DNA from: Siphonodentalium dalli
Lineage: Eukaryota > Mollusca > Scaphopoda > Gadilida > Siphonodentaliidae
Direction of reading: 5' to 3'
Assembly (NCBI GenBank): GCA_032622095.1
Contig: CP136062.1
Location: forward strand, 62,001-126,000
Length of the DNA stretch: 64,000 nucleotides
In this document: positions 22,035 through 63,911 of the stretch, piece after piece
Numbering within the stretch: position 1 is the stretch's first letter
Layout of the letters: each line of letters opens with the position of its first letter
Program-made: the position numbers and the translations under genes
The notes under the pieces: generated by a model
What the model saw: the letters and a program-made list of their open reading frames with translations, nothing else
The model's database searches: none
What the model was told of the DNA's origin: nothing

Positions 22035-22129
22035 TCGTGATTTCAATGTGCACATTGCATTTTTTCCATGAATTGGACCGTAAAAGTCTAAACTTTAAAT
22101 GTGGCCTGTGTTTTGTTTATTAAATCGAC

Positions 22130-22395
22130 ATGCCGTTTTGTCCGGGTTATTTTTAATCTTACGACATATTTTCGGGGTTGTTTTTAATCTTTATGGCGTA
22201 TTTTCCGGGCTCTCTTGAATTTTTATGGCATATCTGCTGGGTTGTTTTTAATCTTACGACGTATTTTCGGGGTTCGTTTTTAATCTTTATGGCGTATTTT
22301 CCGGGTTGTTTTTAATTGTTATGGCATATTTTCCGGGCTGACTTGAATTTTTATGCCATATCAGCTGGGTTGTTTTTAATCTTTGTACCAAATTT
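22130..22395 (+). repeat. ~36-bp tandem repeat directly upstream of the NIDO exon
   Basis: Seven or eight imperfect copies of a unit like TTTTCCGGGTTGTTTTTAAT followed by CTTTATGGCGTA. The last copy (GGGTTGTTTTTAATCTTTG) runs into the polypyrimidine tract and acceptor TTTTGTTTTGCAG at 22405. The repeat is intronic and supplies much of the T-rich tract before the splice site. Confidence 0.85.
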
Positions 22396-22405
22396 TGTTT
22401 TGCAG

Positions 22406-22619
22406 AGTGTATCATTCCAGTTAGTGCTGGCTTCAGACGGAACTCATTCGTATGCCGGATTCCTTTACAGAGAATCTACCTTGACAAGGATACCCGGGAG
22501 ACATTACATCATAGGGTACTACCAAACACCACAAGATGCCAATAAAAACTTCTTCAATCACCCTCGTTCTAATTCTGTGTGGGCGCTTAAAATGCATGAG
22601 TCCTACGATAGAACAATTG
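22406..22619 (+). CDS. Internal exon, NIDO-like domain segment of a NIDO-AMOP-VWD protein
   Basis: 71 codons plus one base. The acceptor is TTTTGTTTTGCAG and the donor G|GTGAGT. The peptide starts SVSFQLVLASDGTHSYAGF and continues FLYREST... with later FFNHPRSNSVWALK. The pattern 'FQ-VLA-DG-S-A-F-Y' followed by a Gly- and Asn-rich stretch is typical of the middle of NIDO domains (nidogen, Mesh, MUC4), which are extracellular. Phase is 0 at the start and 1 at the end; the spare G joins the next exon's AT as an Asp codon. An open frame continues past the donor to 22741, but that part is a 72-bp tandem duplication of the exon end and soon stops, so I place the end at 22619. The N-terminal part of the domain must lie in an exon before the window. 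The family call rests on pattern recognition only. Confidence 0.72.
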
Positions 22620-22745
22620 GTGAGTATGATAGAATAACTAGTAATTATGTGTGGGCGCTCAAAATGTATGACTCCTATGATAGAACAATCAGCGAGTATG
22701 ATAGAATAACTAGTAATTATGTGTGGGCGCCCAAAATATGATAGA
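22579..22745 (+). repeat. 72-bp tandem duplication of the NIDO exon 3' end and its splice donor
   Basis: GTGGGCGCTT at 22579, GTGGGCGCTC at 22651 and GTGGGCGCCC at 22723 mark three copies spaced by exactly 72 bp. Each contains the last ~41 nt of the exon, the donor and ~30 nt of intron. The donor is GGTGAGT in copy 1. In copy 2 it has changed to AGCGAGT. In copy 3 a short deletion has brought an intact GTGAGT close to a stop codon. Confidence 0.88.
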
Positions 22746-22798
22746 AGTGAGTATATGACAAATACATTTGTCTCAAAATATGAAAATATGATGCTGGA

Positions 22799-22937
22799 TA
22801 TATGGGAGACTTTCATATATAAGAGAATGCATTGGCTTACAAGGTCAAGGTAAATATTGTTATGGCATTTATTGCATTCTCTTATATATGGGAGGCTTCC
22901 TATGAGAGACTCGCATATACAAGAGAATGCATTAGCA
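22799..22937. repeat. Foldback element with AGAGAATGCAT arms
   Basis: TATATAAGAGAATGCATT (about 22817-22834) is followed by its complement GCATTCTCTTATATATGGGA (about 22873-22892), then by a second direct copy ACAAGAGAATGCATTAGC. This can form a cruciform and may be a small foldback element. The family was not recognised. Confidence 0.6.
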
Positions 22938-23348
22938 CATGGTTTTCACAAAATTTCAGGAAGCTCCTGTCATCAAAGGGATAACGCTGTTTAAACAAGA
23001 AATTCAATTAATTGAGGAAAAACACCCACTGTCCTGAGTGGTACTATTGATAAGCTATGGGGGGGGGGGGTCTACCACTTCGCATGCAAAATAACACGAA
23101 TGACACCAACAGCTTGGATGTGTGAGAATAATCCACCATATATGGTAGATATTCAACCAGACTGTGCTTAAGTTTCTCAATTGGTGACTGATGTACATAT
23201 ACAGTACACACAAATAGTAATAACAATTAACGTTGTGATTTTGAAATTAACCATGCTAGAATATTGACGGTAAGGTGGTGTTAACTACTACGAGCATAAT
23301 AATAGTACTATTCTTTTATAATATATGTGGGCATGATGTATGGAAATA
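22938..23348. other. Intron sequence without recognised features
   Basis: AT-rich, with a run of 12 G at 23059-23070. No exon-like open frame with splice sites was seen. Confidence 0.6.
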
Positions 23349-23836
23349 TTAAAGGTACTCAATCCGATAAAACTCATCTCAATTACTATTTCAATGGCTT
23401 CGGGGGTCAAAAATATTTGATTCGAGTCGAGGAAGTCACCCATCAAAGCTCAGATTTGTTAGATATGATCAGATATCGATTTTAGAAATCTATTATTGTT
23501 CATTATCGGGAATTCTTTCTGGCCCAGAAGACATTCAAAATTGCGTACCCTGATTATAGAGTTATTCATCCTTGTCTGTTTGAATAGAGTTTTGGCGTAA
23601 AATCTCGAGCAGGTTACCAAATTGACGGCAGTTATTAGTACTCATCTCGAGCAATTAACAAATTTCAAAAATCAATATCTAATAACTCTGAGCTTTGTTT
23701 GATGGTTTCCTCGACTCGAATCAAATATTTTTTACCCCCAAAGCCAAAGAAATAGTAATATAGGACACTCTGATCGGATTGTTGTTGTTGGAATCTGTTG
23801 AGATGTGGACCCTCTTTTTGGATTGAGTACCTTTAA
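23349..23836. mobile_element. 488-bp palindromic MITE-like element flanked by TTAA
   Basis: The ends are TTAAAGGTACTCAATCC at 23349 and its exact reverse complement ending at 23836. The inverted similarity continues inward: GATTCGAGTCGAGGAAG on the left pairs with CTTCCTCGACTCGAATC-like sequence on the right, and CTCAGA with TCTGAG. The outermost TTAA on each side could be a target-site duplication of the piggyBac type, with termini starting AGGTACTC. It has no coding capacity. The superfamily assignment is tentative. Confidence 0.65.
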
Positions 23837-23889
23837 AGGACAAACCAATAGTTACAATACAATTATAACTGGTTTTTTTTAATTAAGAG

Positions 23890-24330
23890 CAAGAAGAGCT
23901 AATTGTGCTTAAGCACAATAAGGGATATTCCTTATTGCGCTTATAAGCTCAATAAGGGAATCTCTATTGTGCTTAAGCGCAATAAGGGAATATTTAATTG
24001 CGCTTAAGCGCAATGAAGAATATTCAAATTTCGCTGATAAAGCCTAATAATGAATCTCTTATTAAAGAATAATATATTATATATAGTACATAAACTCCTT
24101 ATAATACAGATGGTGTAGTCCATCTCCATTCTCCATGGCACAATGGGTGGAACAAATATAGGATTATTCTACTATTTGCAGAAGGGTGATCTAATGAGAG
24201 ATATATTAATTGTGTTAAAGTGGAATGGGAAGTAATTGCGGTTAAGCATAATAAGGAATGTCTTATTGCATTCTCATTGGGCTTAAGCGCAATTAGAGAT
24301 TCCTTAAGTTATTGCGGTTAATCGAAATTG
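23890..24330. repeat. Cluster of short perfect palindromes (TTGCGCTTAAGCGCAA type)
   Basis: Repeated self-complementary words TTGTGCTTAAGCACAA and ATTGCGCTTAAGCGCAAT occur between about 23903 and 24015, separated by AAGGGAATAT-like spacers. A weaker series follows at about 24230-24330 (GGGCTTAAGCGCAATTAG). No coding content. Confidence 0.75.
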
Positions 24331-24659
24331 TCTATTAAATGTCAATTTTGATTCCCATAGAGATCATCAATGATGTCTATGCGCAAGGGCGACGTGCCAA
24401 TCTTCTCTATTGGGATTCCAATTGTTGGCTCATTAAATATGCACATATGCTTAAGATACAGTCGCGCATGAAGCGCGCTCCCGTAAGTCGGGTTTTGGAT
24501 CCCAGTTAATGAAAATATTATTGAAATAATCGGTTTTCCCCAATAAACAACCATATATTCAATAAACATGTTTTGGAGCAGAATTAGGCAGTCCATATTG
24601 GACGCCATCATGGAATTTATTTTTTTTGGTTTAATTTTCACACATATTTATTAGTTATG
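24331..24659. other. Intron sequence without recognised features
   Basis: A 99-codon open frame on the minus strand (24342-24641) has no recognisable domain and no supporting signals. I treat it as chance. Confidence 0.55.
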
Positions 24660-25200
24660 TGGATGGAGTTCTCATTAAACCTCACATCCTTATATTGGTT
24701 ACAGTATTGCCCAAAGTAATTGACCACTTAACCACATCAGAATTATTGGTAATTTTTCAAGATTTAAAATCCTGAAAAATTACCAATAATTATGCTGTGG
24801 TTAAGTGGTCAATTACTTTGGACATTACTGTACGAGGATTGAGTTATCATTACACCTCAAATCCTTATATTGGTCACAGTAATGCCCAAAGTAATTGACC
24901 ACTTAACCACAGCAGAATTATGGGTATTTTTTCAGCATTTAAAATCCTGACAAATTACCCATTATTATGCTGTGGTTAAGTGGTCAATTAATTTGTACAT
25001 TACTGTATGAGGATTGAGTTATCATTACACCTCAAATCCTTATATTGGTTACAGTAATGCCCAAAGTAATTGACCACTTAACCACAGCAGAATTATGGGT
25101 ATTTTTTCATCATTTAAAATCCTGACAAATTACCAATAATTATGCTGTGGTTAAGTGGTCAATTACTTTTGACATTACTGTATGAGGATGGAGTTAAACC
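24660..25200. mobile_element. Three tandem copies of a foldback MITE (period 175 bp)
   Basis: Each copy (about 24700-24832, 24876-25007, 25051-25182) begins ACAGTAATGCCCAAAGTAAT and ends with the near reverse complement ending ATTACTGTA. Long arms include TGACCACTTAACCACAGCAG. The termini TA-CAGT...ACTG-TA fit a Tc1/mariner-type non-autonomous element with TA target duplication. The ~43-bp spacer (GAGTTATCATTACACCTCAA...) is amplified with the element. That suggests unequal crossing over after a single insertion rather than three insertions. Confidence 0.78.
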
Positions 25201-26160
25201 TCACATGAGTGTGTTGGGGATTTGGACCTTGACTTGGGATCTTTTGTTTTTAACGCGACAAATGCGCATACACCTTATACACAAATTTCTTATGTAACCA
25301 GAGTTTTTCTTGGATAAGATGAGTTTGAAGCCTGCTTACATTTCAAAATGTCGTCAGTTTTATATTGTCTGCAGCGGAACTCAACGCGTTGAAGCAAAAG
25401 TTACAAAAGATAAAATGTGTATGTAACGAGACTATAATACAACTGAAAAAATAAATTCAGGGAGGGGTGGGCGATACAGGGAACTAAGGGTTGAACCGAT
25501 ATAAATTTGTAGAGCAATAACGACCAATGTTGACACTTTATGCATCTGAACTCAGAGATCAACTCTACTGTTGCAACAAGGTTGGTTATATGGACTCGGA
25601 GAAAAAGTGGTTTGTATCGATGAACTGACATAAATTAGTGGAGCGATGTTGCATCGCGACTGTACTAAAGCAGCAATGATATCAAATTGGGGGGGGGGGG
25701 GGGGTATGAAATTATCTATCTCTATAGATGGCACCAGGATTATATAGAAAGGAATAGCAATTGATATACGTATACGGTATACTATAGTAATACCATAGAC
25801 AAATAAGTGCAAGTATCACATGATAAAATATTACGTAACGTGACTATACCGATGAAAGAAATAAATAAATTGGACCGGGTTTAGAGGTTGGGTTGGTTAT
25901 GGAATTGGATATGGAATTCATACCGATGGAACGATACAAATTAGTGGAGCGATAAAGACCAATGTTGACATTTAGTCAGGCTACGCGGGAGAAAATAGGG
26001 GTTGATACGATGGACCGAAATAAATTTGTCGGGTGATAATGTCCAATGTTGACCTATAAAGTAACGCGACTGTACTGTCGGATAATTATCAGGTGTAACC
26101 GGTCAAATATGGACTCTAGTGAACAATATAGAACAGCTCAGAAAACATTCGCAGGGTGCT
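25201..26160. repeat. Degenerate ~200-bp repeats with a 17-G run
   Basis: The phrases ATAAATT(A/T)GT(A/G)GAGCGATAA, GACCAATGTTGACA and GTAACG(T/C)GACT recur at about 25500, 25630, 25940 and 26030, which indicates old tandem or dispersed copies. A run of 17 G lies at 25688-25704. No exon was recognised. Confidence 0.6.
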
Positions 26161-26710
26161 AAAATTTATTTAACACCGCATTTGCCATTAAAATTGATTT
26201 ATATCGATAAAACTGTCATTTTTCAAAATTTTAAGCTGAGACTTGGAGTGTGTGGGTGGGATACCTACATATTCCTAAAATGACAGAGTACAGCACGTAA
26301 TTATGTTTTAGATGGAAGAAATGAATTTTTTTCAATGATAAAATTTAACATGGAATTTACCATTAACATCGATTTATGTCGATAAAACTGTCTTTTTTCA
26401 AACCTTTAGGCTGAGACTTGGTGCATGTGCGTGTGTTACATATATGTTCCTAAAATGACAGAGTCCATCGCGTAATTATGTTTTAGATGGAAGAAATTGA
26501 ATTTTTTTTCGATGATAAATTTTAACATGGAATTGTCCCATTCAATTTCAAATCTATTTATGTCGATAAAACTGCTATTTTTCAAAAATTTAAGCCGAGA
26601 CTCGGTGTTTCTGCGTGGAATACCTATATATTCCGAAAACGGCAGGGTTAAGCACGTAATTATCTTTTAGATGGAAGAAATTGATTTGTTTCGATGATAA
26701 AAATCCAGCG
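26161..26710. repeat. Three tandem copies of a ~180-bp unit
   Basis: The landmark AT(A/G)TCGATAAAACTG is at 26201, 26376 and 26560 (spacings 175 and 184). Each copy also carries GCTGAGACTTGG, CCTAAAATGACAGAG and TTTTAGATGGAAGAAAT. Divergence between copies is moderate. No coding signal. Confidence 0.85.
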
Positions 26711-27061
26711 TAAAATAATCGCCAATGGAGTCTTCGCTTCGCATGGTTGGCAATTATCACGATACACAGGGAACACTTTGACGTTCGTACTCATTTTTCA
26801 CCAATTTTTGTACCTGGCTTTCCAATCCTAAGTTTCAAGGGGAAATGTCTAATTTTACTCTATTTGTCGTTATATACATATTATACATATTTATCACATA
26901 ATTTGGCCATAAAAGCAGTTTCATAATTATCGGTAATAGACACGTTTAATATCAGCGCGTGCGATGACGTCACGGCGTTCTTCAGATAACTTGCGATCGC
27001 TGTAGTGTATGATTGTTGTTGTCGATGAATATTTCGCGTTGCTTCGGGTTTATTTGATCAT
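26711..27061. other. Intron sequence without recognised features
   Basis: Contains a TGACGTCA word near 26965 and otherwise low-complexity AT-rich DNA. Nothing assignable. Confidence 0.5.
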
Positions 27062-27238
27062 GTGATAAAAGGTATCTCACACTCGTCCTATTTTATACGT
27101 AATTTATCAACCTCGTCCTCTAAATTATATTTGAGCCTCGGTAAACCTCGGCTCAAATCGAATTTAGTGAACTCGGTTGATAAATTCCGTATAAAATAGG
27201 AACTCATGTGAGATCCTCTATTTATCACACCATTTATT
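27062..27238. mobile_element. 177-bp perfect-ended foldback element
   Basis: GTGATAAAAGGTATCTCACA at the left pairs with TGTGAGATCCTCTATTTATC at the right. Inner arms CCTATTTTATACG and CGTATAAAATAGG, and TTTATCAACC with GGTTGATAAA, also pair. The centre holds GAGCCTCGGTAAACCTCGGCTC, itself a palindrome. It is most likely a MITE. No coding capacity. Confidence 0.75.
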
Positions 27239-27706
27239 ATTCATTTTCATAAAAATAAAAAAAAAGAAGCCGAAGATGACATGTTTAAACTGTTTGAAGC
27301 ACGAATTTGGCGATAACTTATCAGAGTACGTTATACTTGTGATAGTTACGTTACGCTCACGTGTTCCAATATCCTATTGCGATAATCGCTTAACCCTTCA
27401 GTTTTCAACGGCATTTCAATTGGTTGAAATTAAAATTTCTCAAGTTCCAGCTCAACACGAATCTAGTGACCTAATTGGTAGAAATACTTTAGCAGTAATT
27501 CTTAGTTTTATAAGTCATAACTCTAATTTTATTGACGATACGAGCTCAACATCATAATATGTCACTGTTTATGGCGGTGTTATCCAAACGTGTGCTTTGA
27601 TAATGGTTATAATTTTATTTTGCGATCAAACGTCAGTGCAGCCCAGCAGAAACGCATAGGTACTAGTTCAATTCAGCAGAAACGCATAAGTCCTACGATT
27701 ATAGTA
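27239..27706. other. Intron sequence with one unassigned open frame
   Basis: A 93-codon ATG frame at 27276-27557 (+) starts MTCLNCLKHEF. I recognise no domain, no splice context and no initiation context, so I do not call it a gene. A short repeat CAGCAGAAACGCATA occurs twice at about 27645 and 27673. Confidence 0.5.
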
Positions 27707-27744
27707 CACCCACTGAACGCGCTTCGCGCGTTGGTCAGTGGGTG
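27707..27744. repeat. Strong 38-bp hairpin
   Basis: CACCCACTGA and TCAGTGGGTG form the outer stem, and ACGCGC with GCGCGT the inner stem around TTC. The surroundings are AT-rich, so the GC-rich hairpin stands out. It may be the remnant of a short inverted-repeat element. Confidence 0.7.
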
Positions 27745-27939
27745 AAAAAACAGATGATAAACGTTTTTCTGACACGATAAACAAGTAAATGAGATGTAGA
27801 AATTCACAATGCACTAAAAAATTTATGAAAAATCATTTATAACTGAAATTTACAAGAAAAATAAGAATGAAATGTATCCCGATTTTGAACATTTTAATTT
27901 ATGTTTGTCAAATTCACATAATCCCTCTGACTTGTAAGT

Positions 27940-28022
27940 AACCCACAGAGAGCCCCACATAGAGTGGAGCAGACGGCACTCTATGGTGCATCCTTCCATC
28001 TGTGTGGGGCTCCCTGTGGGAT
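27940..28022. repeat. Dispersed foldback element related to the A satellite monomer (copy 1)
   Basis: Left arm ACCCACAGAGAGCCCCACA (27941-27959) pairs with TGTGGGGCTCCCTGTGGG (28003-28020). The loop holds GGAGCAGACGGCACTC, the complement of the A monomer core GAGTGTCGTCTGCTCC. This is therefore the same family as the 129-bp satellite unit, in reverse orientation. Confidence 0.8.
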
Positions 28023-28073
28023 GTGTGCATGTGTATCCAGGCCTGATTTGTAAGTACAATGTGTATGTACCAT

Positions 28074-28180
28074 ACAGTATTGTCCTAAATAATCGACTCC
28101 TTAACCATATTTCTGCTGAGTGGTTGATCTGTGTTCACCTGGGTTTGTGGTGAATGGTATCCGTTAAATAACCTCACCAT
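28074..28180 (+). mobile_element. Truncated copy of the CAGT-ended foldback MITE
   Basis: ACAGTATTGTCCTAAATAAT followed by CGACTCCTTAACCA matches the left arm of the element seen at 30284 and 63767. The right arm is absent or decayed. Confidence 0.55.
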
Positions 28181-28915
28181 GAAGTAACCAGTCTATACTA
28201 TAGATCACACCATGAAGTAACCAGTCTATAATATAGGTCATACCATGAAGTAACCAGTCTATCCTATAGGTCACACCATGAAGTAACCAGTCTATACTAT
28301 CGATCACACCATGAAGTAACCAGTCTATACTATAGATCACACCATGAAGTAACCAGTCTATAATATAGGTCATACCATGAAGTAACCAGTCTATACTATA
28401 GATCACACCATGAAGTAACCAGTCTATACTATAGATCACAACATGAAGTAACCAGTCTATACTATAGATCACACCATGAAGTAACCAGTCTATAATACAG
28501 GTCATACCATGAAGTAACCAGTCTATACTATAGATCACACCATGAAGTAACTAGTCTATACTATAGATCACACCATGAAGTAACCAGTCTATAATATAGG
28601 TCACACCATGAAGTAACCAGTGTATACTATAGATCACACCATGAAGTAACCAGTCTATAATATAGGTCACACCATGAAGTAACCAGTCTATAATATAGGT
28701 CACACCATGAAGTAACCAGTCTATACTATAGATCACACCATGAAGTAACTAGTCTATACTATAGATCACACCATGAAGTAACCAGTCTATAATATAGATC
28801 ACACCATGAAGTAACCAGTCTATACTATAGATCACACCATGAAGTAACCAGTCTATACTATAGATCACACCATGAAGTAACCAATCTATACTATCAGTCA
28901 CAACATGAAGTAACC
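28181..28915. repeat. 33-bp minisatellite ending 36 bp before the AMOP exon
   Basis: About 22 copies of a 33-bp unit (CACCATGAAGTAACCAGTCT followed by ATACTATAGATCA) with small variations. The unit length is a multiple of three, so the minus strand is open for over 100 codons (IDWLLHG repeats). I regard that as a by-product. The array stops at about 28915, just before the pyrimidine tract of the acceptor at 28951. Confidence 0.95.
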
Positions 28916-28951
28916 ATTCTATTTATATACATTTCTCCCTCGGTATTTCAG

Positions 28952-29190
28952 ATAAAACGGGCGTCATCATCTTGAAACTCACCCCACAGTCGCATCATGT
29001 TAATTATGGCGCACTGTGTAGGACATGGTACAGGGAAGAAAATGCAAAGCCAGAAAGAAGATTGTATAGCTATTATAGTCGACGGATGATATGTCCATGT
29101 TGGGAGCGGTGGATTATACTCGATTATCGTCTCATCTATACCGGATCCGGATGTTACATATTTCATTCTCCTTTCTACCCATATACAAAG
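28952..29190 (+). CDS. Internal exon, N-terminal half of the AMOP domain
   Basis: 239 nt. The acceptor is CCCTCGGTATTTCAG and the donor AAAG|GTAAAT. Two bases (AT) complete the codon begun by the NIDO exon. The peptide has GVIILKLTP, then LCRTWYREE, ICPCWERW and TGSGCYIFHSPF, ending PYTK in phase 0. The order 'C-x-x-WY-x-E-E ... CPC ... C' is the signature of the first half of an AMOP domain, an extracellular cysteine-rich domain of Mesh, MUC4, SUSD2 and isthmin. The next exon supplies the CC motif, giving about ten cysteines in total. Two further near-copies of the last ~90 nt plus donor follow downstream. The frame stays open through the second copy, so an alternative donor at 29334 would add exactly 48 codons. 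I chose 29190 because copy 1 alone keeps the CPC motif continuous with the upstream exon. Confidence 0.78.
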
Positions 29191-29590
29191 GTAAATATTA
29201 TATATATTGAGGGAATCACTCCCCCACCCCTATATATGATATGTTGGGAGCGGTGGATTATACTCGAGTATCATCTCATTTATACAGGATCCGGATGTTA
29301 CATATTCCATTCTCCTTTCTACCCATATACAAAGGTAAATATTATATATATTGAGAGAATCACTCCCCTCCATATATGATATGTTGGGAGCGGTGGAGTG
29401 CACTCGATTATCGTCTCATTTATACAGGATCTGGATGTTACATATTCCATTCTCCTTTCTGCCCATATACAAAGGTAAATATTATATATACTGAGAGAAT
29501 CACTCCCCCTACATATGATATGTTAATTGGGAGCGGTGTAGTGAACTCGATTATCATCTCATTTATGCATGATTTGGAGGTTACATATTG
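29094..29590 (+). repeat. Tandem duplication (144 and 140 bp) of the AMOP-1 exon 3' half with splice donor
   Basis: Copies of TGTTGGGAGCGGTGGA...CATATACAAAGGTAAATATT end (exon edge) at 29190, 29334 and 29474. A fourth, decayed copy starts near 29520 with an AATT insertion and no recognisable donor. Copies 2 and 3 lack the CCATGT that encodes Pro-Cys of the CPC motif. The intronic part ATTATATATATTGAG(G/A)GAATCACTCCCC is duplicated too. Confidence 0.92.
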
Positions 29591-29854
29591 TTACATAGGT
29601 TACATCCTGATGGTACATATAGAATACATGCATTGTGTTTCTGAATAATGAATTTAAACCAAGATAGGGATTGCCGATTTACCCAACAAGCTTTCAAGTT
29701 AGCGAGTCATAACTTTTTTCATTATAATTACCATGTTGTTTGCGCCGTTCATCGATGATAGAGCACATGAGTGTATTTTGCACTAATCCATGGCTCAAAT
29801 TCATTCATTTGTGTAACAGAATGAAAAAGAGAGGTTTGGAAGTCGGACCGAAAG
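29591..29854. other. Intron sequence without recognised features
   Basis: AT-rich sequence between the exon-edge duplications and the 5S-like remnant. No repeats or exon signals recognised. Confidence 0.5.
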
Positions 29855-29945
29855 TTGGCAGCGCCCGGAATTCTAAGCCGGTCACCCATCCAAGGATTTA
29901 CAAAGTTCGACGTTGAAGAGAAGTAATCTTTACAACGCGTAACCC
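29855..29945 (-). pseudogene. 5S rRNA-like remnant (5S pseudogene or head of a 5S-derived SINE)
   Basis: On the minus strand the sequence reads CTTGGATGGGTGACCGGCTT and then AGAATTCCGGGCGCTG. This matches the conserved 3' half of animal 5S rRNA, including the GGATGGGTGACCG internal promoter box (box C). Upstream of it CAACGTCGAACTTTG resembles the 5S stretch around CAACGTCGGGC. The 5' third is poorly conserved, so this is not an intact 5S gene. Whether it is a retroposed 5S copy or belongs to a SINE3-type element cannot be decided here. Confidence 0.65.
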
Positions 29946-29997
29946 TTTAATCAATAGACAATAGTCTATTGCTGAATGATATTGGGTATAGAGGTTT

Positions 29998-30081
29998 AAC
30001 CCACAGGGAGCCTCACACATATGGAAGCATGCACTATGGAGTGTCGTCTGCTCCAGTCTATGTGGGGCTCTCTATGGGTTA
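29998..30081. repeat. Dispersed foldback element related to the A satellite monomer (copy 2)
   Basis: AACCCACAGGGAGCCTCACA pairs with TGTGGGGCTCTCTATGGGTT, with CATATGGAAGCATGCACTAT between them. The core GAGTGTCGTCTGCTCCAGTC matches A monomers in the same orientation. It sits alone in the intron, over 8 kb from the satellite. Confidence 0.82.
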
Positions 30082-30283
30082 GACTGAATGATATATAGTA
30101 TATAGGTTTGTCATCCAGAGTGCTGTAAAAAGTGCCCAATGACATTTGAATTTAATTCCACACCCCTTGATGTGAGGTGCATGTTTTCAACATCCTAGCC
30201 ATTGCAGACATACTGCTGTACACCACATGTGGAATACAAACCGGAACTACTTCAAGTTGACTTTATTGCCAAGAGCGACGACG

Positions 30284-30439
30284 TACAGTAATGCCCTAAG
30301 TAATCGACACCATAACCATAGCAGAATTATGGGTAACTTTTCAGGATTTAGTCAGAAATATGGCTTCGCTGAGAGCTTTCCGATAAATGGCAACAAGCCT
30401 GCGGTGGTTAAGGGGTCGATTACTTAGGGCAAAACTGTA
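30284..30439. mobile_element. CAGT-ended foldback MITE, single copy
   Basis: Begins TACAGTAATGCCCTAAGTAA, ends TTACTTAGGGCAAAACTGTA. The arms contain CATAACCATAGCAGAATTAT and the partly matching GCGGTGGTTAAGGGGTCGAT. The interior has GAGAGCTTTCCGATAAATGG, which is shared with the copies at 37373 and 63767. A TA target duplication is consistent with Tc1/mariner. Confidence 0.72.
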
Positions 30440-30761
30440 CATTACATCAACGGTCCACATCTGATGATCCCCCGATAATTACCTACAATAAAGGTAGTTA
30501 TCGTATCAATGGTAGTCACAGTCTTGAATTAAACTTTAATATCCGACATAATGATGTGGAGTAAATACAGAACACATCTCTGCACAACTTGCATTATAAT
30601 CTAGAATCGTAAATCAACCTTGTTGCGAAGGGTGCATTGTGAAATATATTCTTGCACCAGCTGCAACTCATACGATAACAAGATTATCGATTAAGATGTT
30701 CTGTGTTCTGTCGATTTCTGTTCTAGAGTTATCTTTTTTTGTTTTTGCATATGAATTTTGC
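30440..30761. other. Intron sequence without recognised features
   Basis: AT-rich. The words TTCTGTTCTAGAGTTATC and TTTTTTGTTTTTGCATATG just before 30762 resemble the intron part of the following duplicated unit. Confidence 0.5.
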
Positions 30762-30917
30762 TATGAGAATGAGATCGTGATGAGAATTATCTTTCTTTGT
30801 TTGTAGGCATATTGCTATCGGATTGAGATTCTGATTAGAAGTGCTCCTGGAGCTGGTGGTCTTATTACATGCTATGAGAATGAGATCGTGATTAGAGTTA
30901 TCTTTCTTTGTTTGTTT
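30762..30917 (+). repeat. Echo of the AMOP-2 exon 5' end with its splice acceptor (copy a)
   Basis: TATGAGAATGAGATCGTGAT plus TTCTTTGTTTGTAG and the exon start GCATATTGCTATCGG to TTATTACA (exon-like part 30807-30869) match 35173-35284. A second copy of the intronic part follows directly (30870-30917) but loses the AG. The exon-like part is open and reads as ILIRSAPGAGGLIT like the true exon, but the second Cys pair is changed (CC to YC). No donor follows, so it is a broken partial exon. Confidence 0.88.
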
Positions 30918-31622
30918 TGTTTTATTGCGGTATCAAAGGATACCGAATTAAAATGGCTAATTACCCGAGTAATAACAAATCTGTGGTCGAAATTTACCAC
31001 GCTCGCTGCATATTTTCCCGGAAGTGGAGAGTGGGCGTGTCAGTCGGAAGTACATTAGCGAATCATGTATTGTATATAAACTGAACGATTGGATGAAATA
31101 AAAAGTGATTAAATAAATTAGAAAAGAACTTTATTACTTTGATCACATTAATTCGTGATAAAACAACAACGAATGATTATAGTGAATTAACAAAAATAAT
31201 TCAGAAATAGTGACAAATTGTAACTGACCTACAAATGGCAGCTTTTGATTGGTCTAAGAAAATTCCCGCGAAATATGAATCTCTGTCATTGTTCTTTTGG
31301 ACACAATACATGATTCGCCGATAGGTGCAGTCGCACTAAGTTTTACCCACCCTATAAAATTGTCCCACCCAATTAGAAGAATAATTATTAAAAACCAAAA
31401 ATATATTCAACAATGCAGGTTTATACAGTAGTACATGTATTCATTTAACGCATGATATGTATCTGTCCTATTTATTTTGTTCGCTTACATGTGTTTGTCC
31501 ATGTATTTGTCAAATGCGAGAATTGTGTTGTATGCATGATTGTGTTATTTTAGTTATCAATATTTACATAAAATATATTTCGGCCAACAAAGGAGTGTTA
31601 GTTTTAAATTTGTGCCACTCGG
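30918..31622. other. Intron sequence without recognised features
   Basis: AT-rich spacer between two partial exon copies. A 67-codon open frame at 31457-31660 is not recognised and runs into the exon copy; I do not call it. Confidence 0.5.
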
Positions 31623-31700
31623 GTAATTGTAGGCATGTTGTTATCGGATTGAGATTCTGATTAGAAGTGCTCCTGGAGCTGGTGGTCTTATTACACAAGA
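31623..31700 (+). repeat. Echo of the AMOP-2 exon 5' end with acceptor AG (copy b)
   Basis: Following AATTGTAG at 31632, the exon-like part 31633-31695 (GCATGTTGTTATCGG... to TTATTACA) keeps the CC motif and the frame ILIRSAPGAGGLIT. It then diverges into a stop after four codons. Unlike copy a, the upstream intron part beyond TTGTAG is not conserved. Copies a and b are closer to each other (RIEILI) than to the true exon (QNEILI). Confidence 0.85.
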
Positions 31701-31756
31701 AAACTAAGATGCATGCATCAGGTCGGCCGTGAACTATCTACCATAGAATTGTTGTA

Positions 31757-32640
31757 GCTATCGATTATACATTTTGAAACACCTGTCTGTATGTATGTAT
31801 GTGTGTATGTATGACTGCATGTGTGTATGTGTTATAGACTCTAACACTGCTCGAATTTGGTATTTAACGTGTCAACTTGACCTCGCTCATAGGCATGTTT
31901 CTGGACCTTGACCGATCCGACTAAAAATTTGTGTGTAGGACTACTTCGATCCCGGGAGCAATATCGACGGGTCCAATTTCACGTGGGACCATGTTCTCGA
32001 ACGTGCTGATATAGGCATGTTTCTGGACCAATTGAATAATAGTTTGGCCAGACGCTGTATATACTGGGTACTGTCCAGATGGAGGCGATCACAAAAAAAT
32101 CCCTAACTAGCCCGAACGAAGTCGAGTACATCAGCTAGTCTAATATATATTTTGGACATTTGTCTGTCTGTTTGTCTGTTAGCTATGGCCGGGAAAACTG
32201 CCTGACAGATTTGACGAAATTTGATACCTAGGGGAAATTATTTCCAGGGAGTATTTTGGACGGGTCAAATCTTGATCCCGACCTGACTTTGACATTCAAA
32301 AAGATCAATTCAAGGTTAAATCTGATAAAACGTAAGTATTTCAACGAAATTTGATACCTACTGTTACTTTTGTCCCAGGAGTGTTTCGGGTGGGTCAAAT
32401 CATGACCCTGACCTGATCTTGACATTCAAAAGTGTCAATTCAAGGTCAAATCGGGTAAAGCCGGGCGGATTTCGACGGGTACTTTTGTCGTGACTTTTGT
32501 CCGGGGGGTGTTTTGGACGGGTCAAATCGTGACCCCGACATGACCTTCACCTTTAAAATAGTCAATTCAAGGTTAAATCGCGCAATTCTCCGAAAATCAG
32601 AGGGGAACATCCCGGACGAAGTCGGGTCCACCAGCTACTA
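31757..32640 (-). mobile_element. Two head-to-tail microsatellite-tailed elements of the satellite C family, minus strand
   Basis: Read on the minus strand, one element starts near 32640 with GGACCCGACTTCGTCCGGGA. It contains TTGACCTTGAATTGAC-type cores and ends in (ACAG)n, CCAAAATATATATTAGACTAG near 32134. A second starts GTACTCGACTTCGTTCGGGC and ends in a (CATA)n/(ACAG)n tail near 31760. These are dispersed relatives of the C blocks of the 5' satellite and show the element's natural ends: GACCCGAC...TCCGGGC at the start, a microsatellite plus AAAATATAT...CTAG at the end. Confidence 0.78.
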
Positions 32641-34150
32641 TTATATATTTCTAGATTTAGTTACTAACTAAATACCTGTATATTCTACAAAGAAATGTTT
32701 GACAAATATATCTGTATCAATATTGCCATGCGGGTCATTAAAATAGATACGACGAAACAAATTTTGAAGGGTGCATGTATCAGGTAAATTTTTATATTTC
32801 AAATGATGACAGGAATGCGGAAAGTTAATACTGGCTATCCGCATGAAGAGATATACATGTATATAAAAACAAAAATAGAAGATGACTGCTGGCGACAATG
32901 TTTTCAAAAAAAATTCAAAACATTCGATAGCTCCCATCTAATTGTCAGCCGAAGATCAATATGAAGTTTGGTGACTATCAGATGAGGGATATGTCTGTAC
33001 AGTTGCTAAACAATTCAGTCATGCAAAAGAGGATCAAAGAGTAAGATACCAAATTGCTGCCTGTGGTAATGTTTTTTAACGAAATTCGGGAAAATTAGAT
33101 TACTCTCACGCTGGTTATCCAGAAGATCATTGTGGAATCTGGTGACGATCGGACAAGGGGTGTCGTCTGTAGGATCAACCAAATTATTTAGCCATAAAAA
33201 TAGTAAAATTGAAGATCACCGCTGGCAGTGATGTCTTCACAAGGACAGTTTGAGAACAAAATATGGCTCACATCTAGCGGTGACCCAAAATATCCACATG
33301 AGAAAAAGTTCTCCAATAAAAGCTGGCTGCAGGGTGCGCCAATTGATTCAAATTCGAAATTTAGCATGGTGTACTGCTTGTGGCCATGTTTTCCCCGCAA
33401 ATTTGATAGACTGATGGACAAAACCACTGAATCCGTTGAATCAATATACATGTATACATGGATTAATTTATATGCATTGTTATACACAGTACTGGTATAT
33501 AAAGGTACTGAAAATAACTATATTACTAGTATACATAAAATAAACCATATATCATGGCTATGGGTTCATGACAGCTGAGAACTTGGTGTGAATTAAAGAG
33601 TGGTGGTTTCTCAAGCATATCTAACCCTCCACGTTAGTAAAAATGCCATTAAATGTCATAAGTATAATCTAGCTTGAGGACAGACCTTAATTCAACCAGG
33701 TCCTCGCGCGATGTATGGTCGATCACATGATGATCTAGGGGGGATTAGAATTGTTGTATAAAAACAGCACTGCGTGTAAATATAAAATAAAATAGTGCTA
33801 CATCTTATTACAGATTATTGCCATATATAATCAGTGATTATACAGACAGTCTGACAAAATAAAGTTTCAGTGACACTCTATTCGAAGAGGGGAATAATTT
33901 CATCTGTTACAGTCAATGGAGCAATTATGAATCTGGAAAGGTGAAATTTCTAAGTAATACTAGATATCGACATAACGCGATAACATATAACATAAATGCA
34001 ATATGGCCGCTGGCGACCATTTTTTCCTATGAAATTAAAAAAATATTTGATATCTCTCATCTGATAGATCAATATCAAGATAAATATGAAGTTTGGTGAT
34101 GATCGGATGAGTGAAGTGGACTGTGGTATGTGCTAAACGGTTTGGTAATG
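32641..34150. repeat. Degenerate ~170-bp dispersed repeats in intron
   Basis: The phrases GCTGGCGACAATGTTTTC, GATCAATATGAAGTTTGGTGA, GATCGGA(T/C)(A/G)AG and GCTAAAC(A/G)(A/G)TT recur in diverged form at about 32890-33020, 33050-33185, 33215-33420 and 34010-34140. They look like old copies of a repeat with low conservation. Open frames of about 100 codons on either strand (33188-33578) are not recognised. Confidence 0.55.
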
Positions 34151-34455
34151 CTTAAAAAGATTCTTACCTTAATATTTTTATGTTCACTTTATAAACTTCA
34201 CTGAGTCATCCTTGTCATGTATTGAGTTTGATATCTTTTGTTAACAGTTTATAAATTATGTATGTCTCATGTTTGTTATTTTAATTTATGTGTTTATTAT
34301 CATTAAATAAAGTTGCATTCCTTAAAAAGATGCTTACCTCAATGTTTTTATGTTTACTTTATAAACTCCACTGAGTCATCTTTGTCATGTATTGAATTTG
34401 ATATCTTTTGTTAACAGTTTATAAATTATGTATGTCTCGTGTTCGTTATTATATT
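34151..34455. repeat. Two-copy tandem duplication, period 170 bp
   Basis: CTTAAAAAGAT(T/G)CTTACCT begins at 34151 and 34321. Both copies continue through GAGTCATC(C/T)TTGTCATGT and TTTTGTTAACAGTTTATAAA to TATGTATGTCTC. Identity is high over about 130 bp. Confidence 0.88.
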
Positions 34456-35172
34456 ATATACACTTTATAGTGTGTTTTCAGAACGAAAAAAAAATGAATA
34501 AAATCAACAAATTTGTAAATTTAAAAACAATTCAAACGTTGTTGTATTCCATGTCCCAGCCCGGACATATACACCAATTTTCAATAATATTCATTGAGAA
34601 ACAACGGACAAAACGCTATATAACACCCGTATACATATTTTATTCCGAGCCGGACTCATCCTCGGGTACATGTTATAGTAGGTACCGAATTGACACACGT
34701 CGACTGGGGCGAGTTGGCCCTGGGGCGATTATGCCGATTCCGGCACCTTCTATAATTTACCGTATGTATCCGTTTACGCGTAGTTTACTTTAGAAAGTTC
34801 CGCAATTAATACCGTAAATAGAGCGACCATATTTGACAGAGAATGCCTCTGTTATTGATTATCAAGTTGCTATACATTAAAAACGACACATTCACATGCT
34901 CGTTCAAGCGCAGTAGTCTATTTTCCCCATGTTAAAGGACATCCACAAATACTAAATAACGCTAACCTACTGCCGAATGTTTTACACGACAACTGTTAAC
35001 ATATTTGGGCTGAATTCATCTGACGCGGTATTATTCCTCAAAATAAACAACAAAACCATCGTTACTTGGAAATGTAGTTTGGGCTAACATTTACATAAAT
35101 CCTCCACATCATTTATTCGACACACACGTCAGATGAAAAGCAGACATGAAGTAAACGGCCAAATTGGCCGAA
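34456..35172. other. Intron sequence without recognised features
   Basis: Contains an open frame to 34793 (+, up to 121 codons) without a recognisable domain. The rest is AT-rich and non-repetitive. Confidence 0.5.
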
Positions 35173-35221
35173 ATGATATGAGAATGAGATCGTGATTAGA
35201 GTTATCTTTCTGTGTTTGTAG

Positions 35222-35429
35222 GCATGTTGCTATCAGAATGAGATTCTAATTAGAAGTGCTCCTGGAGCTGGTGGTCTTATTACACGAAATCCAATGTTTG
35301 ACCGAAATGGATGGATGCAAAACGATGTCATTCCTAAAGAAAACTGCTGCGAGAAATCCAACAACTGCCGCCTGTACTACCAGGTGCGACCAATCGGGTG
35401 GTGTTATCGCCGACCAACTTTCAGAATCA
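35222..35429 (+). CDS. Internal exon, C-terminal half of the AMOP domain
   Basis: 208 nt. Acceptor TGTGTTTGTAG, donor ATCA|GTAAGT. Begins in phase 0 with A-C-C-Y-Q, then ILIRSAPGAGGLITRNPMF, ENCCEKSNNCRLYYQVRP and GWCYRRPTFRI. It ends in phase 1. The order 'CCY-x(3)-LI-x(4)-GGx... CC-x(2)-S-x-x-C-x-x-Y-x-x-RP-x(3)-C' is the classic C-terminal half of AMOP. In Mesh, MUC4 and SUSD2 the VWD domain follows within a few residues; here too the spare A joins TT of the VWD exon to give an Ile codon. This is the most recognisable exon of the gene. The 5' side (with acceptor) and the 3' side (with donor) are both duplicated in neighbouring intron DNA. Confidence 0.88.
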
Positions 35430-35840
35430 GTAAGTCAGTATTGTGTCGTGTAATCTGCAACCAACTTTCAGAATCAGTAAGTCAGTATTGTGTCGTGTAA
35501 TCTCCAACCAACTTTCAGAATCAGTAAGTCAGTATTGTGTCGTGTAATCTCCAACCAACTTTCAGAATCAGTAAGTCTCCAACCAACTTTCAGAATCAGT
35601 AAGTCAGTATTGTGTCGTGTAATCTCCAACCAACTTTCAGAATCAGTAAGTCAGTATTGTGTCGTGTAATCTCCAACCAACTTTCAGAATCAGTAAGTCA
35701 GTATTGTGTCGTGTAATCTCCAACCAACTTTCAGAATCAGTAAGTCAGTATTGTGTCGTGTAATCTCCAACCAACTTTCAGAATCAGTAAGTCAGTATTG
35801 TGTCGTGTAATCTCCAACCAACTTTCAGAATATCAAAATC
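35414..35840 (+). repeat. 47-bp tandem repeat made of the AMOP-2 exon end and its splice donor
   Basis: CCAACTTTCAGAATCAGTAA occurs at 35414 (the true exon end), 35461, 35508, 35555, 35583, 35630, 35677, 35724 and 35771, with a partial copy at 35818. Spacing is 47 bp except for one shortened 28-bp unit. Each unit holds 16 nt of exon, the full donor GTAAGT and ~25 nt of intron. Each also contains CTTTCAG|AATCA|GTAAGT, which mimics a 5-nt micro-exon with acceptor and donor. Confidence 0.95.
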
Positions 35841-37372
35841 AGAGTCCGTTCAAGATCAAAATTTGGGCTTAGATCCACCCATTTTCACCAATGTTATGGT
35901 CGTTGTCGACATATAATTACCAATTATTTTGTTTTGCAGGTGATAAATTCAGTTTAAGTTAGTTATCTGATTGCTGAAAATCCAGTCATGGTCAAATTTG
36001 GGTTTGGTCAGCCCATTTTTAGTCAAGCTTGAGTTTTTGCCATGGGCTGGCGTCCGTCGTTCGTGCATGCATTGGTCTATCAAAAATTTCCTTTGGCTAA
36101 CCCAACTGGCCCCATCCCTCATCCGATACCAAACTTCACATGGATATTCAGGGTAACCTCTAGATGGTAACCACCAATTTTTAGCTTGACGCTGAAGGTG
36201 TTTTTGTTATCACTCGGAATATGCAATTTTTCGAAAGATTCTGACAGAGCTTTCAAAGCTAATTTACGGCGTTTCCAGGAGAATTTCGAACCAGTTTTTT
36301 TCCGTTTCCTGACAGTTCGATGCGCTTTACCATTTTATGATGTGTGTGCGATAAAGTATTCCATAACTTGGCCATGAAAAGCATAAGAAATAAGAAATGT
36401 TAGTATTTTCGTCCAGCTTTTGCCATATTTCTCCGACAGTGCTCTGAGGTCGAGCGAGATTATATATGACAAACTGCAGATTGTAACGGAATGCTAGACA
36501 GAATGACAAATAGCGGAACATAATTTGCAATAAAGTGGGACGGCCAATATCAGAAAGAAGTTAGCACGTAGAGGGCTTATTTTGGCATCAATAGAAGCAC
36601 CATATTTGCCCTAATTAAATATATTAACCCCCGCCAATCATAGGACACTCATATTTTTCATTATTCGGCCAACAATTTATCTACACTAAATAATGTTGAA
36701 ACCAAGGCTGCGTGACAGCTGCATAATTGCTTTTTAACAGTGAAAAATGTATGCCCATAAGAAAACTTTGAATGAAAATAAAGCTTAGGAGGATGTCAAA
36801 GTGGGTTTTTTTTCGGATTTTGGAAAAAAAATGTCGAAAAACTGTTGATGTAAAAGTGCGAAAACAAAACGACGAAAATTATGCGAAACCGACTGGCCAT
36901 AAACGATCGGTAATGTTGGAACCACAACATAGGCCTATGATTTACAACGGAAAAATCGAGATGAGGCCCAAGCGCCAGCGGTCCAGCAAAGCATCATGGA
37001 TCCGACATGGAACAAGCCCACACCACATGGAATGCTAAGCCAGACATAGAGTCATGTATCCTCCTATGTTCATATTTTAATATTGTGATGTTTATCATCA
37101 CACATGTTTATATATTTATTCAATAAAGAATCAAGAAAAATATATATACTTCACTCTTATATCAGTCAATAGGATCCACAAATGGAACTAGGTTTGACTT
37201 GGGAAATTCCCTTGCTAAAAATAGCAAAATATAACAGGAAGTCTGAGCACGTGCTCTCCGTGGGATTTCCTATTACGAATTTTCCAAATTAACTTACCAT
37301 TAACTTAATAAAACTGATAATTATGTTTTTGTATTAACTTAGTTGTTTAAGACTTAAATTTAATAGCTGATA
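35841..37372. other. Intron sequence with degenerate dispersed repeats
   Basis: 35845-36180 contains diverged phrases (ATTTGGGCTTAGATCCACCC and ATTTGGGTTTGGTCAGCCCA; CCATCCCTCATCCGATACCA) related to the degenerate repeats at 32.9-34.1 kb. An 88-codon frame at 36772-37038, rich in Lys and Arg, has no recognisable domain and no splice context. Nothing else assignable. Confidence 0.5.
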
Positions 37373-37502
37373 TACAGCAATGCCTTAAATAATTGAGAGC
37401 TTTCCGATGAATGGCAACAAGCCATATTGCCGACTAAATCCTGAAAAGTTACCCATAATTCTGCTGCGGTTAAGGAGTCGATTATTTAGGGCATTACTCT
37501 AT
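37373..37502. mobile_element. CAGT-ended foldback MITE, rearranged copy
   Basis: Starts TACAGCAATGCCTTAAATAA and ends GATTATTTAGGGCATTACTC followed by TA. The left arm is shortened and joined to the interior GAGAGCTTTCCGATGAATGG. The right arm (CTGCTGCGGTTAAGGAGTCG) is complete. Confidence 0.7.
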
Positions 37503-38240
37503 ATTGTATACCAGTACTCTAAAATGCGACTAATGATCGGTCAATCTGAGATAATGGCGAAACACAAAAATTATCAGATGCGATGCCGATCATATCGACA
37601 CCACAGACATTATTGAAGGAGACAAAGCTGTCATATTGACGAAAACAAATACGTCTGAAAAATACGGTGACAATGACGAAAAATTTATGAAAACTTGCAA
37701 TGTTATGGAATGTGATAAAATTATGACGAAAACACTGCTCATTTATTTTTTCCATATACGAAAATCATTTTGACATGACCCCTAATAAAATAGCATCTAT
37801 TACACAACATACTTGTATTCATCACAGTGAAGCGACTGTTTGGTACATCTATATACCAATTAACCCTTACACGGGAAGGTAGTACGAAAAATGGAAAAAC
37901 TACCTTCGACATCAATGGATAGAATTTACATTTGTTGATGAATTCATACGCTAGCAAAGAACACGTTATGTATAACACGACGGAGTGAGCTACTTCGCTT
38001 TCATTTCCATATACGATATGACTGTACGTTGAACCTGTATAAATGCTGCACTGAACACGACGCTGATTTATTATAAGCTTAAAGTAGACTCGGTATTTAC
38101 AAAAATAATTTCTATTTCCGCTGATTTATTCCATATAATCGGGATTATTTTGTATAAAGATGTAGGACTAGACACAAGGAATGTATTTGTGTGCTAAAAT
38201 ATTTCCACTTCTGATCAACATAACGAGGTAACAGATTGGT
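37503..38240. other. Intron sequence without recognised features
   Basis: AT-rich, non-repetitive, up to the edge of the VWD array. Short open frames on both strands are not recognised. Confidence 0.5.
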
Positions 38241-61514: not shown

Positions 61515-61757
61515 TTGTATTGTGGGGTGATCCACATATCGAGACGACAGATGGACGTAGATACTCATTTAATGGTTTCGGCGAGTATCATCTCCTTAAA
61601 GTAGACAACAGCACGACTCAGATTGATATCCAAGCGAGAACAGGGTTTGCGCTGTCGAAGAACAACACTAAGGTTAATGCCACAGTGTTTACGGCGTGTG
61701 CCGGAAGCGATAATAACGGAGCCAGTTTCCACGTGGAACTCTCATCAAATAGAACAT
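61515..61757 (+). CDS. Internal exon, start of the von Willebrand factor D domain
   Basis: 243 nt. The acceptor TATTAATATTACAG is that of the last array unit; the donor is ACAT|GTGAGT. Entering in phase 1, the peptide reads IVLWGDPHIETTDGRRYSFN and then GFGEYHLLKV, with QARTGFALSKNNTKVNATVF and ending SSNRT in phase 1. 'GDPH-x(2)-T-x-DG-x-x-Y-x-FNG-x-GEY-x-LL' is the hallmark start of the VWD domain in MUC4, SUSD2 and Mesh. The GDPH tetrapeptide is the known Asp-Pro autocleavage site in several mucin VWD domains; whether it cleaves here is unknown. N-glycosylation sequons NST, NNT, NAT and NRT are visible. The first ~62 nt are shared with the upstream array; everything after TTTAATGG is unique in the window. 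This sequence makes the domain call firm. Confidence 0.92.
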
Positions 61758-62100
61758 GTGAGTTAATTAGTTAGTTTATGATGCCGATATTTTGTCATTT
61801 GGTAACTACTAACTTTTTTTATTTTTTTGGGTGGTAAAATTGAATTTATTTGGTAAAATATGTTTCAGTGTAAATTTTATTCTTTTGTATGTATTTTTGG
61901 GGAGGGAGTGGGAGGGGGTCATCGAGGGGTAAATGATTTTAGGTATAAATTAATTATTTTATATGTATTTGGAGGGGATTTTGAGGGGTGTACCATTTGT
62001 AGGTATAAACTATATAAATTCATTTAAATGCATTTTTGTGGGGGTTGAATGTTTTTGGTAAAATCAGTTCTTTTGAGTACATATTGAGCGATCATTCAAG
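61758..62100. repeat. Degenerate T- and G-rich repeats in the intron after the VWD-1 exon
   Basis: The phrases TTTTATATGTATTTGGAGGG, GAGGGGT(A/G)TA and AGGTATAAA(C/T)TA recur two to three times with a period near 80-90 bp (about 61875, 61955, 62030). Old tandem repeat, no coding signal. Confidence 0.6.
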
Positions 62101-62471
62101 CATTTAACATGTCATTTTATTTGTTCATCAGCGATGATTATCTATGTGATTGGGCATGGTATTTAAATGTCATTTTATTTTTTCATCAGCGATGGTTATT
62201 CATGACATTTAATGTGTAGTTTAATTTTTCCACAGGGATTGTTATCTATGTGATCGGTTATGGCATTTAATATCTCATTTTATTTTGTCATCAGCGATCG
62301 TTATTCATGACTTTTGATGCGTCAATTGTTTTCCTGCAGCCATAATTGTTGCTTTGTGGCTACATATAACATCTCATTTTATGTTTTTTCTTCAACAATG
62401 CTCAATTTATGTTTTTTCTTTGGCAATGTTTATTCATGACATTTACCATCTCGTTTTATGTTTTTCCTCAG
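62101..62471 (+). repeat. Echoes of the VWD-2 exon acceptor and first exon bases
   Basis: Acceptor-like TCATCAG or CCACAG followed by CGATGATTATCTATGTGAT-type sequence occurs with exon-like starts at 62132, 62190, 62236, 62295 and 62340. Weaker copies without AG lie near 62396 and 62424. Spacings alternate 58, 46, 59, 45, so the basic unit is a ~104-bp dimer. The true exon (62472) begins CGATGATAATCTTTGTGAATG, which is clearly related. Copies have diverged much more than those of the VWD-1 array. Confidence 0.8.
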
Positions 62472-62600
62472 CGATGATAATCTTTGTGAATGACCAGGAC
62501 AAAACAACAAATTTCTACAATAGTCAGGATTTTAATTACACTGAAACAAACATCATGGCGAAGCGCGTTAACGATTCCATCATCATGGTGCTTAATTCAG
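62472..62600 (+). CDS. Internal exon, second part of the VWD domain
   Basis: 129 nt. Acceptor TTTTTCCTCAG, donor TCAG|GTAAAG. Entering in phase 1 it completes a Ser codon. It reads MIIFVNDQDKTTNFYNSQDF, then NYTETNIMAKRVNDSIIMVLNS, ending in phase 1. In MUC4 and SUSD2 the corresponding stretch is 'L-x-V-x-L-N-x-Q...F... (hydrophobic) ... S-V-I-M-L-x-S-G', which this pattern resembles. Sequons NYT and NDS are visible. The rest of the VWD domain, and any sushi or membrane segment, must lie beyond the window. The exon call depends on frame continuity with the VWD-1 exon and on good splice sites. Confidence 0.72.
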
Positions 62601-63050
62601 GTAAAGTTACTATACTGCGTAATTGTGCTGGTACTGGAATCAGTCCATCTGTGTGTCCTTCTGTCCATGGATGCAACTTTGTCCGAGCTTATATTGTTTA
62701 ATTGTTCAGTGTATTTTTTTTAAACTTGGCACAGATATTTAATACCATGGGAATTGGTATACTTGGGAACATGACGTCCGTCTGACTTTTTTTAGTGGAG
62801 TTATTCCCCTTTTTCAATCTTTTATTCAAATTGAAGAATCTATATCTTCTTGTATTCTATAAGATAGGATACTACTTCAACTGACCATTTATTTTAGGAA
62901 GAATAACATTTAAAAAATTAAATTCGTCCCCCCGCTCCCTGACAAGTTGCATGTAAATATAGCAATATATTTATATTGGACTAATATGCACTCCATATTT
63001 GGAAACAATTCTTTTGTTATCTTGGGATAGACGTGTCCTCCTAGAAAAGA
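62601..63050. other. Intron sequence without recognised features
   Basis: Starts with the donor GTAAAG. GAATCAGTCCATCTGTGTGT and AACTTGGCACAGATATTTAA resemble common invertebrate repeat phrases, but no element ends were found. Confidence 0.5.
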
Positions 63051-63051
63051 T

Positions 63052-63715
63052 TGTAGTCCGTAAATATGTAGTCCATTGTAGTTCGTAAATATGTAGTCCG
63101 TCAATATGTAGTCCGTTGTAGTCCGTAAATATGTAGTCCATTGTAGTCCGTAAATATGTAGTCCATTGTAGTTCGTAAATATGTAGTCCGTTGTAGTTCG
63201 TAAATACGTAGTCTGTAAATATGTAGTCCGTTGTAGTTCGTAAATACGTAGTCCATTGTAGTCCGTAAATATATAGTCCATTGTAGTCCGTAAATATGTA
63301 GTCCGTTGTAGTCTGTAAATATGTAGTCCGTAAATATGTAGTCCGTAAATATGTAGTCTGTAAATATGTAGTCTGTAAATATGTAGTCTATAAATATGTA
63401 ATCTCTAAATATGTAGTCTGTAAATATGTAGTCTGTAAATATGTAGTCTGTAAATATGTAGTATATATGTAGTCTGTAAATATGTAGTCTGTAAATATGT
63501 AGTCTGTAAATATGTAGTCTGCAAATATGTAGTCCATTGTAGTCCGTAAATATGTAGTCCGTTGTAGTCCGTAAATATGTAGTCCATTGTAGTCCATAAA
63601 TATGTAGTCTGTAAATATTTAGTCCGTCAATATGTAGTCTGTAAATATGTAGTCTGTATATATGTAGTCTGTAAATATGTAGTCCATTGTAGTCCGTAAA
63701 TATGTAGTCCGTCGG
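63052..63715. repeat. 15-bp minisatellite with 10-bp insert variants
   Basis: About 40 units of TAGTCCGTAAATATG (15 bp), many joined to a 10-bp TAGTCCATTG or TAGTCCGTTG. Both CCG and CTG versions occur, and CTG units are grouped in the middle (63350-63530). The period allows long minus-strand open frames of TDYIF/NGLHIY repeats, which I read as artefacts. Confidence 0.95.
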
Positions 63716-63890: not shown

Positions 63891-63911
63891 TCCAAGCCTG
63901 GACATAGTGTG

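Follow-up and report, generated by a model that had tools for sequence, protein, structure and literature searches.

Tandem copies across six exon borders of one gene, including a 286-copy acceptor array

Introduction

Minisatellites that carry splice sites, known as mirages, have been described in amphioxus in Adh3 and in the globin genes BflGb6 and BflGb9 (PMC3087553, excerpts). In the same excerpts splicing of the globin and Adh3 genes is reported as undisturbed and the length of the arrays as variable; the mechanism is called unclear, and it is proposed that new introns may arise from mirages (PMC3087553). The domain set NIDO, AMOP and vWD is found together in MUC4, according to an extract of PMC5354666. 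Here we describe a gene in which arrays of this sort were found at several exon borders.

Methods

The window, i.e. the whole stretch of DNA that was analysed, comprised 64,000 nt; the gene region studied was 22406–62600 on the + strand. All positions are those of the window.

In the per-event null model, 16 events, with unit sizes as observed, were placed at random in the array-collapsed 14.4-kb region in 40,000 runs. Exon-internal and whole-exon placements were disallowed, exon spacing was approximated and one clear lag was taken per locus. The per-event null replaced a coverage null because coverage counts extra copies too; the coverage run had missed NIDO 3', probably through culling of self-hits, and had collapsed the VWD-1 array out of register.

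Results and discussion

Gene and surroundings

The DNA of the window is animal-like. Five exons were placed on the + strand with AG/GT at each border (Table 1). Joined, they give 344 codons without a stop or frameshift, and the phases agree at all four introns. The Pfam NIDO model matched the first exon alone (1.3e-5, 25.7 bits against a cut-off of 25) and scored 21.8, under the cut-off, in the joined protein. In the joined protein the Pfam VWD model matched residues 223–324, over the last two exons (3.5e-6), and the last exon alone gave no Pfam VWD match. A PDB sequence search returned two matches, both to the Fc fragment of IgG binding protein and within the VWD region. The 109-residue joined region of both middle exons matched no Pfam family even at E 10, and the Pfam AMOP model did not place either exon in the AMOP domain family; their cysteine pattern is one that we take to be that of AMOP, and the labels AMOP-1 and AMOP-2 follow from this.

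Table 1
Exons, border arrays and adjoining features of the gene
Feature	Positions	Strand	Description
32-bp intronic array	22130–22396	+	Ends ~10–22 nt upstream of the NIDO exon; adjoins, no span
NIDO exon	22406–22619	+	Acceptor TTTTGCAG, donor GTGAGT; phase-consistent; Pfam NIDO on exon alone
NIDO 3' border array	22570–22737	+	Unit of 72 bp, of which 50 nt exonic and 22 nt intronic; 21-bp pair nested within
33-bp × 22.7 intronic array	28175–28922	+	Stops 30 nt before the AMOP-1 exon; adjoins
AMOP-1 exon	28952–29190	+	Phases; Pfam match absent
AMOP-1 3' border array	29097–29589	+	144/140 bp; three GTAAAT donors; fourth copy cut before donor
AMOP-2 5' border copies	30724–30915	+	Faint partial copy; full 111-bp copy, 30759–30869; left half of next copy, 30869–30915
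Insert in second AMOP-2 5' copy	30916–31626	+	~711 bp; 12-bp inverted match AATTACCCGAGT near ends
Right half of split AMOP-2 5' copy	31627–31696	+	
AMOP-2 exon	35222–35429	+	Phases
AMOP-2 3' border array	35398–35831	+	Ten copies of 47 bp, one of them only 28 bp long; GTAAGT donor in nine
VWD-1 5' border array	38246–61574	+	286 full 82-bp copies, 22 nt intron + 60 nt exon
VWD-1 exon	61515–61757	+	Pfam VWD 3.9e-6 on exon alone; phases; first 60 nt inside last array unit
VWD-2 5' border array	62094–62492	+	~55-bp units, 104-bp dimers
VWD-2 exon	62472–62600	+	Phases; joined VWD match extends to residue 324 of 344

Upstream of the gene, the window is largely tandem satellite from position 1 to about 22,060, a mosaic of 122-, 129-, 130- and 131-bp arrays that recur in larger blocks of ~3 kb. 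A short element is present at 29981–30095, 27939–28020 and 63911–63974, both within introns and past the gene, and has sequence in common with the 129-bp satellite (65 matches in 1–22060); the satellite looks as if it had grown from such an element. Two further arrays lie at 24661–25196 (175 bp × 3, with inverted repeats of 65–66 nt, 88–92% complementary, inside the units) and at 63050–63712, 3' of the VWD-2 exon (15/25 bp; TGTAGTCCGTAAATA).

Copies across six borders

Tandem copies lie across six of the ten exon borders: NIDO 3', AMOP-1 3', AMOP-2 5', AMOP-2 3', VWD-1 5' and VWD-2 5'. The first-pass annotation had listed the same six, and each was recovered in its place. At two further acceptors, those of NIDO and AMOP-1, adjacent intronic arrays end ~10–30 nt short without spanning the border; this leaves just the two VWD donors free of any detected array over a distance of 30 nt. 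At the score used, 16 tandem loci were found in the array-collapsed region and none in two first-order Markov resamples of it. None of the 16 is exon-internal or covers an exon. The earlier statement was that the arrays at the six borders all span the border and that none is purely exonic; for AMOP-2 5', where the 111-bp pair is displaced, it is a faint 54-bp repeat that crosses the working acceptor.

Unit sizes and copy identities differ between the borders (VWD-2 ~75–87%, AMOP-1 79–93%, NIDO 91%, AMOP-2 5' 93–96%, AMOP-2 3' 93–98% for the longer matches and VWD-1 a mean of 96% to the working copy). As had been proposed, they point to separate events, probably of different age.

The border copies are contiguous exon and intron in genomic order. 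Template switching from partly spliced RNA, which had been put forward as their source, would account for the involvement of borders and for copies that end near an exon edge, such as the last AMOP-2 3' copy, 2 nt short of it. No alignment ends exactly at an exon edge, however, and no 24-mer of the four exon–exon junctions was found in the window at fewer than 7 mismatches, so that we consider this origin hardly credible.

NIDO, AMOP-1 and AMOP-2 borders

The NIDO 3' array had been given as three 72-bp copies. The unit size held; two copies are full and the third is partial. An inner 21-bp pair within the full copies also crosses the donor, and in the second copy GCGAGT replaces GTGAGT, so that GT is lost. 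At AMOP-1 3', the expected three to four copies of 144/140 bp were found as 3.5 copies at offsets of 144, 140 and 143, with a donor in three and 94 nt of the unit exonic.

For AMOP-2 5', two displaced copies had been reported. They are indeed displaced, 3.5–4.5 kb upstream of the exon, and are better described as a 111-bp tandem duplication of which the second copy is split by an insert. The insert of ~711 bp landed only slightly 5' of the duplicated acceptor's AG, at a distance of a few bases. The working acceptor itself is crossed by an inner repeat spaced by 54 bp (35174–35200 and 35228–35254), which is faint (22 of 27 positions match). The AMOP-2 3' array, noted before as 47 bp in about ten copies, has just this number.

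VWD-1 and VWD-2 borders

The VWD-1 5' array, previously put at about 280 copies of 82 bp, extends over 23 kb as assembled and holds 125 distinct units among its full copies. AG is kept in 285 of the 286, one upstream copy having lost it. Since the working copy is identical to the array consensus, the first 60 nt of the VWD-1 exon appear to evolve with the array. Exact 400-base stretches recur at offsets of 3,096, 8,882, 4,806, 976 and 5,786, a pattern that block duplication would leave and that suggests turnover. A scan of viral contigs with a piece of the 82-bp unit gave no exact matches.

The array might have been inflated by assembly, or the gene might be decaying. Long blocks of nearly identical sequence are difficult to assemble and the whole gene is not in view; against this, the five joined exons have no stop or frameshift and the number of distinct units argues against simple copying. 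We regard this reading as very improbable.

The copies have no clear codon-position bias (0.025, 0.033 and 0.032). The acceptor core AG/TTG is the least variable five-site window of the unit, with 1 variant compared with 55 on average, and random five-site sets matched this low variability in 0.45% of draws. The intron part of the unit is more variable than the exon part (0.065 versus 0.029). Both contrasts are weakened by block duplications that copies share, which make the copies non-independent, and by a small number of common variants.

At VWD-2 5', the dimers of ~104 bp noted previously are present, with underlying units of ~55 bp; six upstream copies lie ~55 bp apart and five of them keep CAG, in windows chosen by the analyst.

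Reading frame of the extra sites

The extra NIDO donors at +21 and +93 are in frame and open, as is the extra AMOP-1 donor at +144; in-frame variants are therefore possible on the predicted frame. The third AMOP-1 donor runs into a stop, and all eight extra AMOP-2 3' donors shift the frame or run into a stop. Every one of the 285 upstream VWD-1 copies, all of which were checked, runs into a stop ahead of position 61515, and the last copy is the only one that reads through the exon.

These results bear on whether selection keeps the arrays, either because clusters of donors or acceptors raise exon recognition or because they supply in-frame alternative ends. The three open donors speak for it, together with the nearly complete retention of AG and the constancy of the acceptor core in the VWD-1 array. 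Its weight is reduced by the stopped or frame-shifting sites at the other borders, and also by the sequence of the alternative NIDO donors: the usual donor consensus is GTRAGT, from which their GTAATT departs further than the working GTGAGT. Selection of this kind seems improbable to us.

Possible preference for borders

Six of the 16 events were at borders, where uniform placement gives an expectation of 1.07 and a probability of 0.00045 for at least six; this count scores AMOP-2 5' as a border event though it is displaced from the border, and it is favoured because AMOP-2 5' and VWD-2 5' were recognized with exon queries. For the four border loci found without exon queries, the probability of at least four was 0.018. 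The observed 8 of 10 borders spanned by an array or within 30 nt of one was reached in 0 of 20,000 simulations. When the number of events was doubled, tripled or quadrupled, the probability of at least six rose to 0.02, 0.10 or 0.26; it was lowered by leaving out five loci judged by eye to be transposable-element-like. With an exposed target of 5 or 3.5 kb and all 16 loci it was 0.08 or 0.30. The stretch from 22,040 to 38,240 is rich in inverted-repeat pairs of the kind that mobile elements have (19 pairs, partly overlapping), and a shorter old target is therefore plausible. In the coverage test, 4 of 10 edges were within tandem loci, which was not significant (P = 0.23–0.31). The preference for borders is thus less sure than the repeats themselves, the pattern having been chosen post hoc in one gene.

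It had been suggested that the recurrence hints at a mechanism which targets splice junctions. The excess over the expected count stands in its favour and the shorter targets and the coverage test stand against it; such a mechanism is possible. In its general form, a mutational process would favour splice borders, for instance through transcription-linked breaks or through repair near spliceosome-bound nascent RNA. Besides the excess and the simulated borders, nested events of differing unit size at NIDO 3', AMOP-2 5' and VWD-2 5' would fit such a process, but unequal exchange of the ordinary kind would also produce these as soon as two copies are present. The GC skew of the units (−0.16 to 0.38) and their G-runs give a mixed picture, so that the R-loop-linked breaks proposed earlier are not indicated. 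In no case among the six units was folding clearly better than that of the shuffled sequences (z = −0.76 to 1.55). With the pattern drawn post hoc from a single gene, we consider a border-favouring process unlikely. Doubtful to about the same degree is the wider proposal that the borders of this genome are true tandem-duplication hot spots tied to splicing or transcription, recurring across genes, with acceptor arrays of intact AG maintained as a reservoir of splice sites.

DNA secondary structure was also considered as a driver and was rejected as unsupported on the same shuffles.

Proposed explanation

The arrays are best explained, with a probability of roughly 0.7, as mirage-type minisatellites: ordinary tandem duplications of DNA that were tolerated as the exon-proximal site survives and were then expanded by unequal exchange. 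Short tandem duplications with units of ~21 to 144 bp would arise repeatedly in this repeat-rich gene. An exonic tandem duplication alters the protein. A duplication across a border would leave the exon-proximal site and the whole exon untouched, with the surplus copies on the intron side; because exon body and exon-proximal site stay intact, it would be expected to do no more harm than a duplication within the intron. Splicing would keep the exon-proximal site, most plausibly through recognition of the exon as a unit between its acceptor and the nearby donor, and products of the decoy sites would mostly contain stop codons. Once two copies were present, unequal exchange and block duplication could expand some arrays, that of VWD-1 to its present size, and expansion would homogenize the first 60 nt of the VWD-1 exon with the array.

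Tolerance of changes that keep one working site had been among the earlier suggestions. It fits the anatomy best, and the intact exon-proximal borders and consistent intron phases support it. By itself it predicts no excess of borders over intron, yet more border events than expected were counted and most borders are affected. Nor does bare neutrality predict the conservation of AG/TTG or the greater variation of the intron part in the VWD-1 array. What the sequence shows directly is the anatomy, the contiguity of the copies, the retention of the sites and the effects on reading frame; the route of mutation, the choice of splice site and the neutrality of the copies are put forward as the probable, not the observed, parts of the tandem-duplication reading.

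Comparison with known systems

As in the amphioxus mirages described in excerpts of PMC3087553, the repeats span 5' or 3' borders, hold many AG/GT copies, leave the exon–intron structure in place and appear to evolve in concert. A unit of exon and intron across one border is present at all six borders, at the working AMOP-2 5' border in the form of the faint 54-bp repeat only. The splice dinucleotide is kept, working sites included, in 285 of 286 copies at VWD-1, 9 of 10 at AMOP-2 3', 3 of 4 at AMOP-1 3' and 6 of 7 at VWD-2. Unlike the amphioxus cases, six borders of one gene are involved here and one array has 286 copies in 23 kb, against BflGb6 haplotypes of 6 and 3 units (PMC3087553).

Internal tandem repeats at exon–intron boundaries, which can alter intron structure, are likewise described for human segmental-duplication genes, where, according to an extract, they came to light because recent paralogs differ in copy number, and where transcripts were changed (PMC2812944). 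A tandem duplication in potato RdRp also carries splice signals (PMC4974935, in part); in contrast to that case no new intron is evident here, the extra sites lying within existing introns, and the joined five exons require no added intron. Intron 1 of earthworm metallothionein likewise has a large minisatellite in a repeat region of 10–19 kb, and the portion of PMC12783039 consulted does not describe the repeats as copies of exon borders.

A full-text search of open-licence literature, by the passages it returned, yielded neither a larger border array nor another gene with six affected borders. The present case makes it testable whether splice borders duplicate more often than introns, and how splicing selects one acceptor among 286 near-identical ones. 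The kind of repeat is already known as the mirage; six borders in one gene and an acceptor array of 286 copies look new.
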